This document shows, piece by piece, positions 722 through 39,356 of a DNA stretch of 39,623 nucleotides. The translations under genes and the position numbers were made by a program. Position 1 is the first letter of the stretch, and each line of letters begins with the position of its first letter. The notes under the pieces were generated by a model. That model saw only the letters and a program-made list of their open reading frames with translations, made no database searches and was not told the DNA's origin. Source of the stretch: Pirellulales bacterium (GTDB lineage: Bacteria; Planctomycetota; Planctomycetia; Pirellulales; JAICIG01); assembly GCA_035533075.1 (NCBI GenBank), contig DATLUO010000144.1, forward strand, positions 1-39,623, written 5' to 3'.

Positions 722-751
722 GGGTTCAGGGTTCAGGGTTCAGGGTTCAGG
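722..751. repeat. Heptanucleotide repeat (GGGTTCA)x4
   Basis: Four perfect units of GGGTTCA with a partial fifth. The stop codon of the coiled-coil gene read on the minus strand lies inside the repeat, so its last residues (GPEP) are repeat-encoded. The inverse orientation occurs at 1297-1324 and again at 21180-21211. Confidence 0.9.
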
Positions 752-1699
752 ACCATGGTTCGTGGCTGGGGTGAGCGTCACCTGTTTCGCGACGAAGGCT
801 TTCACTTCATCGTAGCGCTTTTCCAGCCGCTCGTGCTCCTCGGCCAAGTCTTTCTTGAGCCACTCTAATTCGTTTCGACGGCGCGTCAAATAGGCTGCTT
901 CATTCCGGTAGCGCTGGGCCATCCGCTCCCGCACGGCTGCCAGTGCCGAGTCGGTGGCGGCCGTTTCCAACGACCCGCACAACTGGGCCTGCAGCTCTTC
1001 CGCGGATGAACGCAATTCTAATGCCTCTGCGTGCATTAGCGAGACTTCCTCGCGAAATTCTTCGAGATCCAGCCGGCGTCGGTCGAGCTCCTCGCTGATG
1101 CGTATCAGGGCCTCTCGGCGCTGCTGCCAGACCGCTTCTGAAAGCGTAAGCTTGGGGTCGGCGAGGGAGATGGAACTGGAAGCGGCATCCTTTTCGCCTT
1201 TCGCTCCGCGAAAAGGCGCACTTTCGGGAGCCGCAGCTTCAGCCTGCGGAACGCCACGCAGCGCGTTCCCTACAGACGTGTCACCAGCCTCCGTCCTGAA
1301 CCCTGAACCCTGAACCCTGAACCCTTCTTCGTGTGCGTCGAGGCGCGCCTCGCGCTCATTCAGCTCGTCGTTTCGCTGGACCAGCCAGAGGCGGGCCTCT
1401 CGCAGCTCCTGCTCGAAACCGGCCTGCCGCGCGTTGAGTTGGGCTTCGCGGAGTTCAAGTTCCTGCCGCCGCCGGTCGAGATGAGCGGCCAACTGATCGG
1501 CCTGCAATTGAAGCTGGACGGCGCCCTCGACACGCACCAGGTCGGTGATGGCCTGCTCGAACGGCATTTCGGCCAGCGGCGGCAAACGGGTCAGCGAGTC
1601 GCCAAGCGAATGCGCCGCATCCACGCGCGTCGCGGCGACGCCCAGGGAATTACCGCCTTCGGTCAGCTCGTTGAGCGCGATATCGCGGACTTGAGGCAT
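740..1699 (-). CDS. Coiled-coil protein of unknown function
   Basis: A 319-residue protein starting at MPQVRDIALN. I chose this start over an upstream in-frame one at 1741 because the 14 extra residues look unrelated to the acidic, helical protein. Residues about 45-130 and 195-305 are long charged helices rich in Glu, Arg, Leu and Gln (for example ELDRRRLDLEEFREEV), typical of a cytoplasmic coiled coil. The two helical blocks are separated by a Gly/Ser/Ala-rich linker entirely encoded by repeat DNA at about 1185-1325. No signal peptide, membrane segment or catalytic motif is visible. It is transcribed in the same direction as thioredoxin but separated from it. It could be a scaffold or a filament-like protein; no function can be assigned. 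Confidence 0.7.
   Translation of the reverse strand: MPQVRDIALNELTEGGNSLGVAATRVDAAHSLGDSLTRLPPLAEMPFEQAITDLVRVEGAVQLQLQADQLAAHLDRRRQELELREAQLNARQAGFEQELREARLWLVQRNDELNEREARLDAHEEGFRVQGSGFRTEAGDTSVGNALRGVPQAEAAAPESAPFRGAKGEKDAASSSISLADPKLTLSEAVWQQRREALIRISEELDRRRLDLEEFREEVSLMHAEALELRSSAEELQAQLCGSLETAATDSALAAVRERMAQRYRNEAAYLTRRRNELEWLKKDLAEEHERLEKRYDEVKAFVAKQVTLTPATNHGPEP
1185..1325. repeat. Cluster of palindromes plus (TGAACCC)x4 inserted in a gene
   Basis: Three repeats lie end to end inside the coiled-coil gene: a hairpin at about 1194-1217 (CGCCTTTCGC...GCGAAAAGGCG), a second at about 1253-1280 (GGAACGC arms around GCTGCGTG when read on the minus strand), and four heptamers TGAACCC at 1297-1324. 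Together they encode the low-complexity linker between two coiled-coil blocks without breaking the frame. Confidence 0.75.
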
Positions 1700-1810
1700 G
1701 GTTCTCCGGGCCTGGCCGGGAACGAACCACCCGGGCCGCACAATCGTTAAAGTTTGCCGGTCACTACTATCGGCAGCGGCAACGGAGAAGTTTAACTGAA
1801 GGTCTAAGAC

Positions 1811-2137: not shown

Positions 2138-2315
2138 TAGAATCGTCTCCTAGTCACTGCTCAGGGCCTATTGCAAAGTTACGGAATTATAGAGGGGCTG
2201 GCGGGGGTGTCAAATCGACGTTTATGCCTGTGAACCCGATTGGGAAGAGCCGCTCAGCCACGAGCTGGGTCGCGTTTTTCCTGATTCCGTCCGATCGGTT
2301 TCCGCTTCGGGCTGG

Positions 2316-3437
2316 GTGGAGTGCCGTAGCCCGCTTGCTCCGCAAGCGGAAGGGGCCACCGGCCGGCCGGATCTTGCTGTCGGGAACGTCGAAAAGCTGG
2401 AAGGCCGTTCCGCTCACGGAGTGAGCGGGCTACAAACGCCCTGCGTCGCCTTCGCCGCGCAGTGCCTGCCCGACGCCCTGGAAGTCTCGGCGCCGTCGAT
2501 ATCGCAGTGGGCCGCCAAGACCGTCCAATGGCTGATCGAGCGGTTATACGGTTACAATGGGTCCTGGCGGCTGCACGTCTTTTGCGTGCCGACGACCCAG
2601 CGGCACGTCACGCCGGCCCGTTGTCGCTATATCGAACAAGCCGTCGCCGACCTCTTGCGGAAAAAGCAGAGGCGGCTGCTGAGAACGTGGAATCGAGATC
2701 CCAAGCCGCTCGCCCTGCCCGACGAAGGGCTGCTGCAGCTCGCCCTGCGAACCTCCACGGTCGGTTACTGGTCGGCGATCGCTCCCGACCGATGGCACGA
2801 TTTGCGGCGCTGCGTATCGCGGTTTCCGGGCGGGGTGGTGGAGGTGCCGGCCGACCGGCAGGCGCCGTCGCGGGCCTTCGCCAAGCTGGCCGAGGTCGAG
2901 TTGCGTCTGGCCAGACCGATTGTGGCCGGGGAAACGTGCGTCGATCTGGGAAGCAGCCCCGGAAGCTGGGCCTATTGGGCGCTTCGCCGGGGCGCGCACG
3001 TGGTCGCCATCGACCGCAGTCCGCTGCGCGACGACCTGATGCACAACGACCGTTTGACATTTCTGCAGGCAGACGCCTTTCATTATCAACCCGCGGAACC
3101 GGTCGATTGGCTGCTATGCGACGTGATCGCCTTTCCGTCCCGCGTCATTGAACTGGCAGAGCGGTGGCTGGCCCGCGGTTGGTGCCGTCATTTCTGCGTC
3201 ACGATCAAGTTTCGCGGCCGGGGAGAGTATTCCAAGATCGACTCGCTCAAGGCGGACCTGGAGGCAGGCGGACACGACTTTTACCTGCGGCGCCTGACGG
3301 CAAACAAGAACGAAGTGACGCTGTTTGGGGCACGAAGTTGCTATAATGCAAAGCGAGATCGAGAATCGGAGCTTTTTGAGAGAACGCAGCCATGCCAGAC
3401 GAAACGATTCCGAGTGCGCCGCCGGCCCAATCCATAG
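2316..3437 (+). CDS. FtsJ/RlmM-like SAM-dependent RNA methyltransferase
   Basis: A 373-residue protein from a GTG at 2316. Residues about 209-235 contain the Rossmann SAM motif VDLGSSPGSWAYWALRRG followed by VVAID; later come QADAFHY, LLCDVIAFP and a late lysine segment (TIKFRGRGEYSK), as in the FtsJ/RlmM class of 2'-O-methyltransferases acting on 23S rRNA. The family normally ends near NEVTLFG; about 34 basic residues follow here. The reading frame is open from 2193, and codons 2220-2315 (VYACEPDWEEPLSHELGR...) look coding, but no ATG/GTG/TTG lies in that part, so the true N-terminus is doubtful. A palindromic repeat (2326-2433) interrupts the N-terminal region in frame. The fold is confident; the target base and whether the N-terminus is intact are not. 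Confidence 0.8.
   Translation: MECRSPLAPQAEGATGRPDLAVGNVEKLEGRSAHGVSGLQTPCVAFAAQCLPDALEVSAPSISQWAAKTVQWLIERLYGYNGSWRLHVFCVPTTQRHVTPARCRYIEQAVADLLRKKQRRLLRTWNRDPKPLALPDEGLLQLALRTSTVGYWSAIAPDRWHDLRRCVSRFPGGVVEVPADRQAPSRAFAKLAEVELRLARPIVAGETCVDLGSSPGSWAYWALRRGAHVVAIDRSPLRDDLMHNDRLTFLQADAFHYQPAEPVDWLLCDVIAFPSRVIELAERWLARGWCRHFCVTIKFRGRGEYSKIDSLKADLEAGGHDFYLRRLTANKNEVTLFGARSCYNAKRDRESELFERTQPCQTKRFRVRRRPNP
2326..2433. repeat. Inverted repeat inside the methyltransferase gene
   Basis: Arms 2326-2350 (GTAGCCCGCTTGCTCCGC...) and 2409-2433 (...GGAGTGAGCGGGCTAC) are imperfect reverse complements around a 58-base centre. The whole is translated in frame as a low-complexity stretch (SPLAPQAEGATGRPDLAVG...) between two segments that look native. 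Confidence 0.8.
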
Positions 3438-9641: not shown

Positions 9642-9718
9642 CTCTTGTTGGGCACCGCGTAAGACACCATACTTGGGCTATGCCTACCCGCCCAAGCAAG
9701 AAAGCGACGTCCATCACG

Positions 9719-9756
9719 GTGGGCCGGCGCTCGCAAGCTCGCTTGCCCCACCTTAC
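9719..9756. repeat. Half copy of the GGGCCGGCGCTCGCAAGC palindrome
   Basis: This 38-base stretch matches the right arm of the inverted repeat at 15048-15139 with few differences. No left arm is present here. It lies between the small anchored protein and the SGNH-like gene. Confidence 0.8.
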
Positions 9757-9810
9757 GACTGCGGTACAAAACTGGGATAACTTCCAGGACGCCGCAAGCC
9801 CAAGTTTTCA

Positions 9811-9871
9811 CCGGCCCAGCTTCTGCGCCAGCCACCGCCAACACCTCAATTCCGACCGCGTGAAGTAGAAT
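9811..9871. repeat. Half copy of the nested-hairpin element
   Basis: Matches the right arm of the full element at 11037-11266 (CCAGCCACCGCCAA, then CCGCGTGAAGTAGA). The C-terminal residues and stop codon of the minus-strand SGNH-like gene lie inside it, so the element supplies that gene's end. Confidence 0.75.
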
Positions 9872-10943: not shown

Positions 10944-11487
10944 ACGCTGCCGTGTTCGGGAACGGATGCGCGCACGATTCGGCGCATCGGTGAGCCGCGA
11001 AGTGTAGCGGATCGAGCAGGGCGGTCAATGTCGCTATACTTCACGCGGCCAAGAATGAGACATTTTTCCGCGAGCAGAAGCGGTGGCTGGGGCAGAGCTT
11101 GGCCAGTTACAGGCTGGCGCCCTTCAGCGGCGTGGCGGCCAAGTGATGCCCCGGTTGGGCGCACCGGGGCATCGCCTGGCCGCCGAGATGAACGAAGTGC
11201 CAGCCTCCACCCGGCCAGGCTCTGCCCCAGCCACCGCCAATGTCTCATTCTCGGCCGCGTGAAGTAGAGCGTCATCAATTTGACGGCGCGCGAGGAGAAA
11301 GTCCGGGGGCTGTGGTATTTACGGAAGTCATTCGCAAACTTAAGCTTTTGGTTATCTTGGGGTGCTGCCCGCGTCCAATGGCGTAGGGTTTGCGTAACCG
11401 TCGTCGTGCCGCGGAGGAGCACGTCGCCGCCGCGGACCGGCAGAGAGAGGCTTCCGATTACTTGGTTCGGCTGCCGGAGAATGACCG
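10944..11487. promoter_or_regulatory. Divergent intergenic region with a large hairpin element
   Basis: This 544-base gap separates the SGNH-like gene from the start of the envelope operon and must hold the promoters of both if each is driven from here. Nearly half is the nested inverted repeat at 11037-11266. GGAG lies about 8 bases before the ATG of the first operon gene. I see no convincing -35/-10 pair. Confidence 0.4.
11037..11266. repeat. Nested-hairpin element, full copy
   Basis: Outer ends TACTTCACGCGGCC and GGCCGCGTGAAGTA are exact reverse complements. Moving inward, AATGAGACATT pairs with AATGTCTCATT, then GGTGGCTGGGGCAGAG pairs with CTCTGCCCCAGCCACC allowing small differences. The centre is a second hairpin, GATGCCCCGGT and ACCGGGGCATC. 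It encodes nothing I can support. A second full copy at 21021-21179 keeps the middle arms and the inner hairpin. Confidence 0.85.
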
Positions 11488-14722: not shown

Positions 14723-16579
14723 TTGAACCATTTCGATTCTTATGCACAGTGGTTGGGAATCCCCGCCGACCGGCGGCCGCCCAACCACTACGAATTGCTT
14801 GGACTGAGCAGCGGCGAAACCGATGCGGCCCGCATTCACACGGCCGGGCTGGAGCGCAGCGCCAAGGTGCGCCGCTATTGCCTCGGCAAGCACGGGGCCG
14901 AAGCGACGCGGCTGTTGGGAGAAATCGCCACGGCCTTTGACTGCCTCTCCGACACGGCGGCGAAAGCCGCTTACGACCAAAAGCTGTTTGGCCACGAAGT
15001 CGGCGAGGCTGCACACGACTTGCCGCCCGTGCGGCACGATCTGTCAGGTAGGGCGGGACCAGCGAGCTTGCGAGCGCCGGCCCACCAATCCGAGGGCCAT
15101 GGCGGGCCGGCGCTCGCAAGCTCGCTGGTCCCACCCTACGCGCACCGTCTGCCGCCGCGCTCGTTTGCCTGGCTCAGGCGGCGTCGCGCGGCCGCATCGT
15201 CCGGCCCGGCCCGCTTCACCTTTGCCACAGTCTTCTTGTTGGCAGCGACCTATGGGGTGGTCTGGTCGGCGCGCCATAACCCCGCCAGGCATACACATCC
15301 GGCGTCGTCTGCCGCGCAAGTACGGCCGCCGGCCGCACCGATTGAAAAGCCGGCTGGCGCCCGGCCGGTGGAGCGCGCCGAGATTGCTTCGGCATCCAAG
15401 TTTTCCGACGACCGCGCGCCCGGATCCGTCGCCCCGCCAACGGTCGTTGCAACAGCGGTCGTCGACCGCTCGGAGACGAAGCCCGATGACGGCCAGCTGG
15501 CCGATGGCCCGGTGGAACCAACGTCAGGCGATGCCCAGCTCAAAGCAGCGGCAACGGACAGCGGCCGTGCGGTGGCGAAGGCAGCGGCCAGGACGGCGAA
15601 TTTGCCGGCTCAACCGAACGAGGCGCCGGCGAGCGACGCGCCGTCGCCACCGGCGGCTGCAGTCTCAGCAGCCACGAAGGACGCCTTGCCACCATCCGCC
15701 GCCGCGCCTCAGCCGGGCCTCCGGCAAAAAGCAGATGCCCCGCCTTTCAGCGTCGTCCAAGTCACGGGCACGGAGGACATGGAGTTCGAAGATCCTCAGG
15801 CCGATTTTGGCAAGGCCTGGCGCTCGGCAACACGCGGCGTGCCGGAGGTGCTCGAACTAACGTTTGCGCAACCGGTGAGTGCGCTCTACCTGCGGGTCTT
15901 CGAAACGCCCTTGTTTGCCAAGGTCCAAAAAGTCGTTCTCTACCCTGACGCCGGCCCGCCCATCGTCATCAAGCCGGTGCAGCTTTCGTTTGACGCGGAG
16001 AATCATGTACGAACTTGGAGCCTGGGCGAAGTCCGGCCGCCGAGCAGGAGAGCGGCTATCACGTTCCATCCGACGACCGAAGGCTTTGTCGAGGTTGACG
16101 CCGTGGCGTTGCTCGATCGCCAACAGCAGCCGTATTATCCCGTCGGGGCGCGGGCCACGAGCAGTGCCGTGGCGGACGACCCCGACGTGGTCGACGAGCG
16201 CGGGCCGTCGGTCGCCGATCGAATCGAGGCGGCGAATGCCCCGCCCGCCCAGGGAGACGACGTTCTCGACAAAGCCGATGAGGTGGCGGCACAAGTGCAG
16301 CTCGATAAAGCCAGAAGCACGCATATCATCAATGATTACGTGCTCATTCTCAAGCACTATCCGGAAACGCAATCGGCCGTAGCCGCGGTGCGCGACTTGG
16401 CGCAGATGCGTCAGGCGCTTTGGCGCACCGGCAAGTGGCGCGTGATCATGGACGCCTTCGATCGCTTGGGGCAACACTCCCCTGATTCGGACGCGGCAAA
16501 GCTGGTGCCGCAAGCGTTGAGGGAGGCTGATTTGCCATCGAGCAGACCAACGCGCGCTCGGGCACCTGGGCGGCGCTAA
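14723..16579 (+). CDS. J-domain-like, transmembrane protein with C-terminal beta domain
   Basis: A 618-residue protein starting with TTG at 14723; no nearby in-frame ATG fits the conserved start. Residues 1-85 match the planctomycete J-domain-like module (YAQWLGIPADRRPPNHYELLGL ... ATAFDCLSDTAAKAAYDQKL); the HPD tripeptide of true DnaJ is not visible, so DnaK stimulation is doubtful. A linker encoded by a palindromic repeat follows (residues about 108-140), then a membrane segment near 170-190 (FTFATVFLLAATYGVVW), a long Ala/Pro/Thr-rich region and a domain at about 345-470 with beta strands (VLELTFAQPVSALYLRVFE) resembling a discoidin-like sandwich. It thus spans the membrane from cytoplasm to periplasm. 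It lies 94 bases after the Hint gene and 24 before the next. Confidence 0.82.
   Translation: MNHFDSYAQWLGIPADRRPPNHYELLGLSSGETDAARIHTAGLERSAKVRRYCLGKHGAEATRLLGEIATAFDCLSDTAAKAAYDQKLFGHEVGEAAHDLPPVRHDLSGRAGPASLRAPAHQSEGHGGPALASSLVPPYAHRLPPRSFAWLRRRRAAASSGPARFTFATVFLLAATYGVVWSARHNPARHTHPASSAAQVRPPAAPIEKPAGARPVERAEIASASKFSDDRAPGSVAPPTVVATAVVDRSETKPDDGQLADGPVEPTSGDAQLKAAATDSGRAVAKAAARTANLPAQPNEAPASDAPSPPAAAVSAATKDALPPSAAAPQPGLRQKADAPPFSVVQVTGTEDMEFEDPQADFGKAWRSATRGVPEVLELTFAQPVSALYLRVFETPLFAKVQKVVLYPDAGPPIVIKPVQLSFDAENHVRTWSLGEVRPPSRRAAITFHPTTEGFVEVDAVALLDRQQQPYYPVGARATSSAVADDPDVVDERGPSVADRIEAANAPPAQGDDVLDKADEVAAQVQLDKARSTHIINDYVLILKHYPETQSAVAAVRDLAQMRQALWRTGKWRVIMDAFDRLGQHSPDSDAAKLVPQALREADLPSSRPTRARAPGRR
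15048..15139. repeat. Inverted repeat within the J-domain-like gene
   Basis: Arms 15048-15086 and 15101-15139 are near-perfect reverse complements (GAGCTTGCGAGCGCCGGCCC and GGGCCGGCGCTCGCAAGCTC) around a 14-base loop. The gene reads through it as GRAGPASLRAPAHQSEGHGG and ALASSLVPPY. A half copy is at 9719-9756. Confidence 0.9.
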
Positions 16580-16603: not shown

Positions 16604-18328
16604 ATGCGGCGGAAACCGACCCGATTGATTCACCTGGCCTCGTTGGCGGGCGCGCTGGCGCTGGCCGGCTTGCTCGGCGCTACGCCGGCCGGCGCGCACG
16701 GCTGGCACAACGCCGCGCTCACCACCTCGTCGCTCGAAGAATGGTTGGGCGACGTGCAACGGGCAATTCCCGACATCTTGAAGCGGGCCACCGAAACCGA
16801 GCTGCACGCCGGACGCGGACTGGAAGACCTGAAGAAACAACGGCCTGGCAGGGGACAGGCCAGGCCCGCTGCGCCCGCCCCGCAGCGGGGCCGGCAGATC
16901 ATCTCGCAGTTGACACCTCAGCAACAAGAGTTGTTGGGCCGCAAGGCCGAAGACGCCCTGGAGGCGCTGGCCTTCATGGATCCGGCCAATATCTTTCCGG
17001 AAGAGTTTCCGCGGTTCGATCTGAGCAAGGTCTCCCAGTATCGCGAGACGGCGGTGAAGCTGTTGAGGTTGATGGGCCCCGTCGGCACGCGGGCCGTCAT
17101 TTCAGAGCTGCGGGCCGAGCTGATGGGCATGGGCCGCTCGCAAAAGGCGACCGATTATCGCGTCAACCCGGCCCGTTACGGTGCCTTGCTGGCTCTCCTC
17201 TATGAAGGCGTGTCGGTGGGTGAAGCCGATGCCGAAGACGTGAACAGCCTGCACATCGCGACAAAAGGAGCGAAGCCGCCACCGCTGGACGCCCTGGCCC
17301 GGCTGGTCGAAGAAACCTTGACGGCCGCCGAGGCGAGCCGCGACACCCTGCCGAAGCTGGCTGACCGGCTGATCGCCCCCGGCGATGCGCGGCTCAAGGA
17401 GCTATTGCTGGCGGCGCTCGAAAAACGGCTGCCGGAGGCGACCATCGACGAGCTTGCCGAGCTGATGCAGCATGTGGAAGGCTCGGTGCGTCAAAAGGCC
17501 ACGCTCGCCCTGAGCAAGCGGGCCGACGAATTCAGCGTCGCGCAGCTCATCGATCTCGAATCGAAGTTGCTGAATAAGAATGTGCAAATCAAGCGGACTT
17601 TCTATGAGATCTTTCGCATGCTCATGCCGAAGGCCACGGGCGAGGAGCTGCTGGCGCTGGCCAAGCAGGATGACTTGGCCGTGAGAGCGTTGGCCCAAGG
17701 CTTTCTGGCCAAGAGCATTCATTCGCAGAGCGTCGCCGGCCTGCTGGACATGCAGCAGTTGTTTGCGGGCGATCCGCTGGCGCGGACGATTGCCGCCGAG
17801 CTCACGAAACGCAGCCCCAAATACGCCGACGTCAAAGACCAGCTTGAACAAATCATCGCGTTCCTCGGCTCGACCGACGCCGAAACGGCACGGGCGGCCG
17901 AGCGGCAGGCGGCCAACGCCTTTCAGCGCGCGCCGATTCGTGAATGCTTGCGCTGGTTGGCGACCGACGACGACCGTTTGCAAAAGCTGATCTGGAAGCA
18001 GATCGACGGCCGGATTGCCCGTGCCGATGCGCAACGCGAAAGCGGCTACCGGCAGGTGGCGTTCGAGGAGCTGGCCGACGATGACGTCGAGCGCGGCAGC
18101 CGCCTGGCGGCCATCGAGTTGATCGAGCGCCTCGCGGACCCCGCGTCGGCCGGCCTGTTGGTCGACGTGCTGCCGAAGCTGCCGCGCGAGCTTTGGCCGC
18201 GGAGCGGCGAGGCCCTGCGCAAGTTGACGCGGCAAGATTTTGGACCGCGCCCCGGCGACGGGGCCGCCGAGCTGAACGCGGCCTTGGAGAAGTGGCGGGC
18301 TTGGCTGAGCGCACGGAGCAAGCAATGA
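16604..18328 (+). CDS. Secreted HEAT-repeat-like protein
   Basis: A 574-residue protein with a signal peptide (about residues 1-32, ending ATPAGAHG). The rest is almost all helical with repeating pairs of about 35-40 residues (for example ELAELMQHVEGSVRQKATLA and LLDMQQLFAGDPLARTIAAE), as in HEAT/ARM solenoids. A Pro/Arg/Gly-rich patch at about 80-100 (QRPGRGQARPAAPAPQRGRQ) is coded by palindromic GC-rich DNA. No enzyme motif is seen. Such solenoids usually bind proteins; in this operon it could be a periplasmic scaffold around the ExbBD motor. GGAG lies 13 bases before the ATG. Confidence 0.82.
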   Translation: MRRKPTRLIHLASLAGALALAGLLGATPAGAHGWHNAALTTSSLEEWLGDVQRAIPDILKRATETELHAGRGLEDLKKQRPGRGQARPAAPAPQRGRQIISQLTPQQQELLGRKAEDALEALAFMDPANIFPEEFPRFDLSKVSQYRETAVKLLRLMGPVGTRAVISELRAELMGMGRSQKATDYRVNPARYGALLALLYEGVSVGEADAEDVNSLHIATKGAKPPPLDALARLVEETLTAAEASRDTLPKLADRLIAPGDARLKELLLAALEKRLPEATIDELAELMQHVEGSVRQKATLALSKRADEFSVAQLIDLESKLLNKNVQIKRTFYEIFRMLMPKATGEELLALAKQDDLAVRALAQGFLAKSIHSQSVAGLLDMQQLFAGDPLARTIAAELTKRSPKYADVKDQLEQIIAFLGSTDAETARAAERQAANAFQRAPIRECLRWLATDDDRLQKLIWKQIDGRIARADAQRESGYRQVAFEELADDDVERGSRLAAIELIERLADPASAGLLVDVLPKLPRELWPRSGEALRKLTRQDFGPRPGDGAAELNAALEKWRAWLSARSKQ

Positions 18329-19603: not shown

Positions 19604-20245
19604 ATGAGCATCTCGCACATCATTGAAGCGAACGGGCCGTTCTTCACGATCATCTTCACCGTCGTGAGCCTGGCCAGCATGACGGTCGTCTTCTGGCGCT
19701 GGTGGTTGAACTATCACGCCAAGACCGACCTGGCCGATTTTCTCGGCCGCCTCGAGCCGGTGCTGGAAAAGGAAGGCGTCGAGGGGGCGATTCGTCTCTG
19801 CGATGAAGAGCCGGGCATCCTGCCCAAGCTCTTCACCACCGCGCTGCAAACCGGGCCGGAGGGCAAGGTCGCCACGCGCAGCGCGTTGGCGAACCTGATC
19901 GAGCTGGAGATTCTGCCCGACTTGAACTTCCTGCTGCCGCTGATCCTGGTGCTGGCCAAGCTGTCGCCCATGCTGGGGCTGTTGGGAACGGTGTGGGGCA
20001 TGATCCTGGCGTTCGAGAAGATTGCCGGCGCCACGAAGGTCAACCCCAGCGACCTGTCGAACGACATCGGCATGGCCCTGTTCACCACGGCGGAGGGCCT
20101 GCTGATCGCCATTCCGCTGATCTTTGCCTACACCATGTTTCGCGAGCAGGTCAACCGTTTCGAGCTTGACTTGCAGCGCGGCGCTCAGGCGGCGATGAAT
20201 CTGGTGGCCAAGATGGGAAAAAAGTCCGTAGTCAGTGGTCCGTAG
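19604..20245 (+). CDS. ExbB/TolQ/MotA-family proton channel protein
   Basis: A 213-residue protein with three membrane segments: about 10-32, 103-130 and 150-172. The first matches PFFTIIFTVVSLASMTVVFW; the second and third hold the family core (LLPLILVLAKLSPMLGLLGTVWGMILAF and MALFTTAEGLLIAIPLIFAY), including the conserved Thr and small residues of the proton path. ExbB pentamers surround ExbD and use the proton gradient to move a periplasmic partner. AGGA lies 6 bases before the ATG. The last residues (SVVSGP) and the stop are within the heptamer array at 20224-20291. Confidence 0.93.
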   Translation: MSISHIIEANGPFFTIIFTVVSLASMTVVFWRWWLNYHAKTDLADFLGRLEPVLEKEGVEGAIRLCDEEPGILPKLFTTALQTGPEGKVATRSALANLIELEILPDLNFLLPLILVLAKLSPMLGLLGTVWGMILAFEKIAGATKVNPSDLSNDIGMALFTTAEGLLIAIPLIFAYTMFREQVNRFELDLQRGAQAAMNLVAKMGKKSVVSGP

Positions 20246-20291
20246 TCCGTTGCCACGGACCACGGACTACGGACCACCGACCACAAACAAC
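20224..20291. repeat. Inverted heptamer array between exbB and exbD
   Basis: Four 7-base units (GTCCGTA, GTCAGTG, GTCCGTA, GTCCGTT), a 5-base centre, then five complementary units (GGACCAC, GGACTAC, GGACCAC, CGACCAC, AAACAAC). The halves pair imperfectly to form a hairpin between the exbB stop and the exbD start codon. Confidence 0.88.
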
Positions 20292-21020: not shown

Positions 21021-21179
21021 GCGGTGGCCGGGGCAGAGCTTGGCCGGGCGGGGCTGGATTTGCCAACACGCCCTGCGGCCAAGCGATGCCCCGGTAACAG
21101 CACCACCGGGGCATCGCTGGCCGACGGCGTTTTGGGGACTGCACGACCCCGACCCGGCCAGCTTCTGCCCCAGCCACCC
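21021..21179. repeat. Nested-hairpin element, second full copy, inside the operon
   Basis: Left arm GGTGGCCGGGGCAGAGCTTG and right arm GCTTCTGCCCCAGCCACC frame the inner hairpin GATGCCCCGGT / ACCGGGGCATC, as at 11037-11266, but the outermost arms are missing. It fills most of the 233-base gap between the two exbD genes. Confidence 0.85.
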
Positions 21180-21211
21180 CCCTGAACCCTGAACCCTGAA
21201 CCCTGAACCCT
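21180..21211. repeat. Heptamer repeat (CCCTGAA)x4 before the second exbD
   Basis: Four perfect units directly follow the nested-hairpin element and end 4 bases before the ATG of the second exbD, where the ribosome-binding site would normally be. Confidence 0.92.
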
Positions 21212-38521: not shown

Positions 38522-39356
38522 CGTTTCTTCTCCGTTACGGGTGGTGAGCGGGCCGCAGCAAAGTGGCCCAATACTTCCAGGTTAAATGAGAGGGTGGCAA
38601 TCGGAAGAGCAGAATCTTTGGCCCAGAAAATCTCCGTCAAATCTCCCGACTTTGCGGCGCAAAGTGGGGTATTTTCGCGTATTCTTGGGTCGTGACGGGT
38701 AGTCTGGATTCGACATCAACCCGTTGTGGTATAATGGATTACGTTGACCAGACGCAGAACGGGGTCAGAACGATTTGGGAAATGGTTTTTGACCCGAATG
38801 GCAATGCCTGCGGGCTTTACGGATTGGCAGTCTTGGTCTCGGTGGCGGCGAAAGAGGGGACCACTTTAGCGGCTTAAGCGGGCCGCGCCCGCGATGGGTC
38901 GATCGCGGCCAGAGCGGACCAGGCGAAGCGGCTGGCCGGGCGGATCGCGGGCCAATGGCCCGCAAGGGAATGTCATGGTACGCTCTGTGATTCGGGCCGC
39001 GGATAGGAGACGGCCCGGGAAAAGGTGGCAGGCCCGGGAAAAGGTGGCAACCCGGGAAAAGGTGGCAACCCGGGAAAAGGTGGCAGGAACCGTTCTTTTT
39101 GTCGAAGCCGGCTTTTCGTCGCGTGATTTAGGTGAGAGGTCGCTCGCGGTGCGCGGCCCAGCCCGCTGCGCGATGAAAACGCGGGCGCGACGGCCGTTGC
39201 CGCACCGCCGGGACGGCTCGGCAGGGCAACACTTAGGCTCGTTCGCCGCAGTCTTCCAGCAAAGCCCCGCCGCGATTGGGGGCACGTGAAGGGGAGGGGG
39301 CCATTTTCGTATAGGCACCATCTCCGCTGGGGCGGCCACCGGGTACTGACGATTGA
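38522..39356. other. Noncoding or decayed stretch
   Basis: No supported gene. It contains AT-richer DNA up to about 38700, GC-rich short palindromes about 38875-38970, the 18-base tandem repeat at 39014-39086, and random open frames without family resemblance. It ends at the truncated coding fragment starting 39357. Confidence 0.5.
39014..39086. repeat. Tandem repeat, four copies of an 18-19 base unit
   Basis: Units starting at 39014, 39033, 39051 and 39069 share CCCGGGAAAAGGTGGCA followed by A or GG. The first spacing is 19 and the others 18 bases. Each unit has the palindrome CCCGGG. Confidence 0.9.

Follow-up and report, generated by a model that had tools for sequence, protein, structure and literature searches.

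The palindromic repeats found in frame inside protein genes of this planctomycete are GTAG-tagged REPs, mostly arranged as inverted pairs (REPINs), and they form at least three lineage-specific families, called A, C and D. They are described here for the window, that is the whole stretch of 39,623 nucleotides analysed from a Pirellulales bacterium (contig DATLUO010000144.1), and for its genome (8.54 Mb in 296 contigs). Very probably, these families are moved by RAYT transposases, most of their insertions into genes are purged, and the survivors with an open frame are translated as tolerated passengers.

The element at 15048–15139 is a family A REPIN, made of a GTAG-REP unit on the plus strand (15048–15086) and an inverted unit on the minus strand (15101–15139), with 14 nt between them. 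As an inverted repeat it spans 92 bp, with 40-nt arms around a 12-nt spacer. The arms are 95% complementary and the fold energy is far below that of codon shuffles (z = −13.5), so that the palindrome a sequence-only reading of the window had reported in frame at this place is real. Its host gene (14723–16579, plus strand) encodes a J-domain-like protein of 618 residues. No stop codon interrupts this gene, its composition is coding-like on either side of the REPIN, and the J-domain frame, the sole plus-strand frame scoring as coding-like across the gene, stays open through the repeat. The corresponding residues (about 109–140) link the J-like domain to a predicted transmembrane segment, and the predicted REP-spanning peptide is APAHQSEGHGGPALASSLVPPYAHR. 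A Pfam search gave no match for this protein, and its assignment to a J-domain-like family rests on planctomycete homologues. Among these the linker is hypervariable, and the insert is present in none. No close orthologue that would fix the insertion point was found; in a genome of the same family (G004) the match is 53% and confined to the J part. As the 92 nt of the element are not a multiple of 3, simply adding them to an existing frame would not by itself account for this case.

In-frame carriage of a REP insert is best shown for the FtsJ-like methyltransferase gene (2193–3437, plus strand). It contains a family C dimer at 2326–2433, composed of a plus-strand unit identical to the consensus (2326–2353) and a minus-strand unit with five mismatches (2406–2433); the inverted pair has a fold energy z of −6.0 against codon shuffles. 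The earlier claim of a palindrome read in frame thus stands for this gene, but not the gene start proposed with it, since the frame is open from 2193 and homology begins upstream of that start, at about 2220. The alignment with orthologues extends over both flanks of the repeat, where the sequence is conserved, and the interval between the GWVE and PCVAF motifs, 11–14 residues in 11 orthologues, reaches about 39 residues here. Neither the palindrome nor the additional residues are therefore present in orthologues, the opposite of the outcome (same protein segment, no palindrome) that the sequence-only reading had named as a sign of incidental symmetry. The net gain is about 28 residues for an element of 36 codons, which suggests that some sequence was lost or replaced. 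In the AlphaFold model, residues 41–72 have a pLDDT below 50 and lie between confident strands; the element encodes residues 36–72 approximately, which are thus modelled as a low-confidence loop between strands. The predicted REP-spanning peptide is SPLAPQAEGATGRPDLAVGNVEK. Two of the methyltransferases compared, from a genome in the same order (G012, L074) and from Pirellula sp. PB1.007 (L223), have N-terminal parts identical to each other. Between 2193 and 2316, upstream of the REP, the frame contains no ATG, GTG or TTG despite the homology there; an atypical start, a frameshift or an assembly error may account for this.

The third gene encodes a coiled-coil protein of 333 residues (740–1741, minus strand). 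A palindrome had been claimed for 1185–1325, and repeats are indeed read in frame there, but the segment is a composite rather than one palindrome, and as a whole its fold energy does not differ from codon shuffles (z = −0.1). It includes a 26-nt family D REP unit, GTAGGGAACGCGCTGCGTGGCGTTCC (1248–1273, minus strand), a small palindrome, CGCCTTTCGCTCCGCGAAAAGGCG (1195–1218), which is a weak candidate with few similar copies in the sampled genome, and a heptamer array, (GGGTTCA)n (1295–1325, minus strand), translated as GFRVQGSGFR. Orthologues align at residues 36–139 and 206–317, and the interval is a coil of about 130 residues in them versus about 66 mostly repeat-derived residues here. Because the protein is shorter than its orthologues across the repeat interval, the alignments point to a likely replacement and not to a pure insertion. 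Arrays of (GGGTTCA)n occur at 722–751, 1295–1325 and 21181–21211 of the window. In the 2.13-Mb sample described below they were found at 126 places, versus 10 in the reversed control; they are mainly extragenic, and a few genes read them in frame (FRVQGSGFR).

The statement that all the palindromes fall in linkers agrees with the J-domain gene and with the methyltransferase loop, but in the coiled-coil gene the repeats occupy the coil interval of the orthologues. A possible fourth palindrome at about 16837–16890, in a HEAT-repeat gene, was rejected as a repeat element: its z score was −1.7 and no copy above background was present in the 2.13 Mb. A search of Rfam matched no RNA family.

Family statistics were obtained from a 2.13-Mb sample of the genome in 81 pieces, of which about 0.88 Mb were chosen blind and the remainder around known family A matches, RAYT loci or contigs already sampled. 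In this sample, which is partly targeted so that copy numbers are not to be scaled naively to the genome, the counts were 211 units for family A (core GGTGGGACCAGCGAGCTTGCGAGCGCCGGCCCACC), 68 for family C (GTAGCCCGCTTGCTCCGCAAGCGGAAGG) and 51 for family D (GTAGGGAACGCCCTCCGTGGCGTTCC), and the reversed control gave 0, 1 and 0, respectively. Over the first 1.5 Mb, 109 of 158 A cores were preceded by the tetranucleotide GTAG and 24 by GTAA, on the 5' side only; the window itself holds a single intergenic A unit with the GTAA variant (9718–9756, minus strand). The C and D consensus sequences both start with GTAG. A units were often found in inverted pairs (A>A<), with a modal total length of 96 nt, and inspection by eye showed no evident target-site duplication next to them. 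The TAG of the tag serves as a stop codon in 22 of 239 tags. Family A matched two of 146 genomes of the order. The GTAG tag, the high and mostly extragenic copy number and the constant spacing within inverted pairs are all features by which GTAG REPs and REPINs have been characterised in the literature (PMC3733652, PMC3116915, PMC8266576).

Twelve matches to the transposase domain PF01797 were detected in the genome. One RAYT (L017, contig C26, 22954–23181; motifs MPNHVHLL and YIASNPQKAGL) has family C REPs on both sides, and another (L019, contig C190, 2895–3071; MPDHLHFL and YILSNPVRRGLV) has family D REPs on both sides. Mobilisation by RAYTs is thus well supported, from gene neighbourhood, for the families present in the methyltransferase and coiled-coil genes. 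None of the 12 matches was flanked by family A in this 296-contig assembly, which may miss such a locus, and for family A we only infer the same mobilisation. Three further PF01797 genes or gene pairs (L008, L009 and L014/L016) are each flanked on both sides by a repeat family of their own, so that several REPtron-like loci are found within one genome. In other species, biochemistry has established that RAYTs bind and cleave REPs as single-stranded DNA at sites adjacent to the hairpin, the GTAG tag being required for cleavage or guiding it, depending on the system (PMC8266576).

Elements of all three families are depleted within genes. With gene calls from a home-made hexamer caller, which makes intragenic counts approximate, 16 of 187 A and C elements lay within a called CDS, versus 83% of the sample being coding. 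The proportion of units inside CDS was 9.5% for A, 7.4% for C and 27.5% (14/51) for D, the difference between D and A being significant (p = 0.002). Of 1,656 sampled genes, 29 contain at least one unit of family A, C or D or of the heptamer repeat. The carriers include NapA/formate-dehydrogenase-like, TPR-glycosyltransferase, UnbV/FG-GAP, several PMT_2-type and Cas6-like genes, as well as the gene of a second protein of J-domain type, in which a unit directly follows the J domain. A C dimer present in one gene (C135_78963) is absent from its paralogue (C43_6147). Where the NapA-like gene carries its single A unit, the alignment to NapA shows no clear gap, and some cases may therefore be replacements and not simple insertions. 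In two PMT_2-type paralogues (L121 and L140), several in-frame D units lie in a shared loop region that precedes a conserved motif of the WSIGSSLWYYPHSLSY type.

The recurrence of the pattern in the NapA/formate-dehydrogenase-like gene, the PMT_2 paralogues, the TPR-glycosyltransferase gene and others bears on another explanation, in which the host genes are decaying pseudogenes and the repeats ordinary extragenic REPs in dead DNA, their frame open by chance. The methyltransferase frame without a usual start codon upstream of its repeat and the shortened coiled-coil gene would fit such decay. However, the J-domain and methyltransferase genes are stop-free and coding-like on both sides of their repeats, and the methyltransferase retains its invariant residues downstream. 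We consider it quite improbable that the genes are dead.

Reading frames were compared among intragenic units. Family A occurs in at least five combinations of frame and orientation and family D in four, with both orientations used. Family A favours phase 0, used by 13 of its 19 internal units. The frame that the TAG of the tag itself would close was seen in use once, in a copy whose changed tag gives no stop. The length of A pairs was divisible by 3 in 5 of 6 intragenic cases versus 29 of 40 others; selection for such lengths is not demonstrable from these pairs, because 96 nt, the most common length, is itself divisible by 3.

These data also bear on the proposed likeness to Rickettsia palindromic elements (RPEs), which was right as far as repeats lying in frame inside protein genes, tolerated there and without counterpart in orthologues, are concerned, but did not hold for family membership. 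The RPEs of R. conorii end in CGTC, and CGTC REPs have no dedicated transposase (PMC3733652), whereas the tag here is GTAG and RAYTs are found with REPs of one family on either side. Descriptions of RPEs also mention a conserved encoded peptide (PMC10969869), whereas the units here are read in several frames and in either orientation. The elements are moreover mainly extragenic, and the host lineage is unrelated. That they are RPEs, or a similar system under selection for one particular peptide, is very hard to believe, in spite of their intragenic, in-frame position and of the one frame preferred by family A. The intragenic GTAG REPs of Di Nocera et al. (2013, PMC3733652) are a nearer precedent than RPEs.

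Under the preferred account of REPs and REPINs spread by RAYTs, the HUH transposases encoded elsewhere in the genome would move the REPs, presumably as single-stranded DNA. Copies would insert widely and most insertions into genes would be purged. The survivors would be open elements that keep the downstream coding sequence in frame, located in linkers, loops and termini, and their translation would add 9 to 37 residues. Most likely, these peptides are passengers that the proteins tolerate and not functional domains; the mix of frames and of host proteins argues against a common peptide function, as Di Nocera et al. argued. A more ambitious version, in which several independent RAYT/REPIN families are a continuing source of in-frame protein insertions and REP-derived peptides are a recurring and possibly used part of the proteome, seems to us rather unlikely. 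The tolerance of family D that it supposes is based on the 27% of D units that are intragenic and on the units carried by several PMT_2-type glycosyltransferase genes and by the second J-domain-type protein.

The families resemble the known GTAG REPs and REPINs that are associated with a RAYT, or TnpA_REP (PMC3733652; Bertels and Rainey 2011, PMC3116915; PMC8266576), in the GTAG 5' of an imperfect palindrome of 26–39 nt, the inverted pairs of fixed spacing, the high and mainly extragenic copy number with some units in frame inside genes, the RAYT placed between REPs of its own family (C and D), and tags whose TAG acts as a stop codon. Unlike the known ones, they are new and restricted to this lineage, as illustrated by family A, and family D has a high intragenic share. 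Most intragenic inserts reported in 2013 were dimers or groups encoding 20–30 residues (PMC3733652). The same study reported GTAG REPs from planctomycetes (R. baltica), as well as REPs lying in frame inside genes of several species, among them Opitutus terrae, a bacterium of the PVC superphylum (PMC3733652). The O. terrae REPs likewise lie within functional genes, but they belong to other families, other genes and a different phylum within PVC. What is new here is the lineage-specific expansion, GTAG REPs in planctomycetes and intragenic REPs being already known. Intragenic REPs are extended to another planctomycete, with alignments to empty sites in orthologues, a structural position, and a transposase matched for two of three families. 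This makes it testable whether the spread of REPINs steadily supplies new protein loops. For annotation it is a warning, as the predicted proteins of the genome repeatedly contain translated REPs, for example VGWDQRACERRPT and GGPALASSLVPPY.

Other repeats were observed in the window. At 38994–39085, CCCGGGAAAAGGTGGCA is repeated four times in tandem, with 18–19 nt per copy and no relation to REPs. A heptamer-like inverted array, GGTCCGTAGTCCGT (20223–20289), spans the 3' end of an ExbB-like gene, which runs into the array. Finally, a compound palindrome of about 160 bp without a GTAG tag, GGTGGCTGGGGCAGAGCTTGGCC...CACCGGGGCATCGCTGGCC, is present at 11080–11237 and 21021–21181, with a fragment at 9805–9839. 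It is frequent in the genome, one of its 14-mers having 76 copies in the sample.
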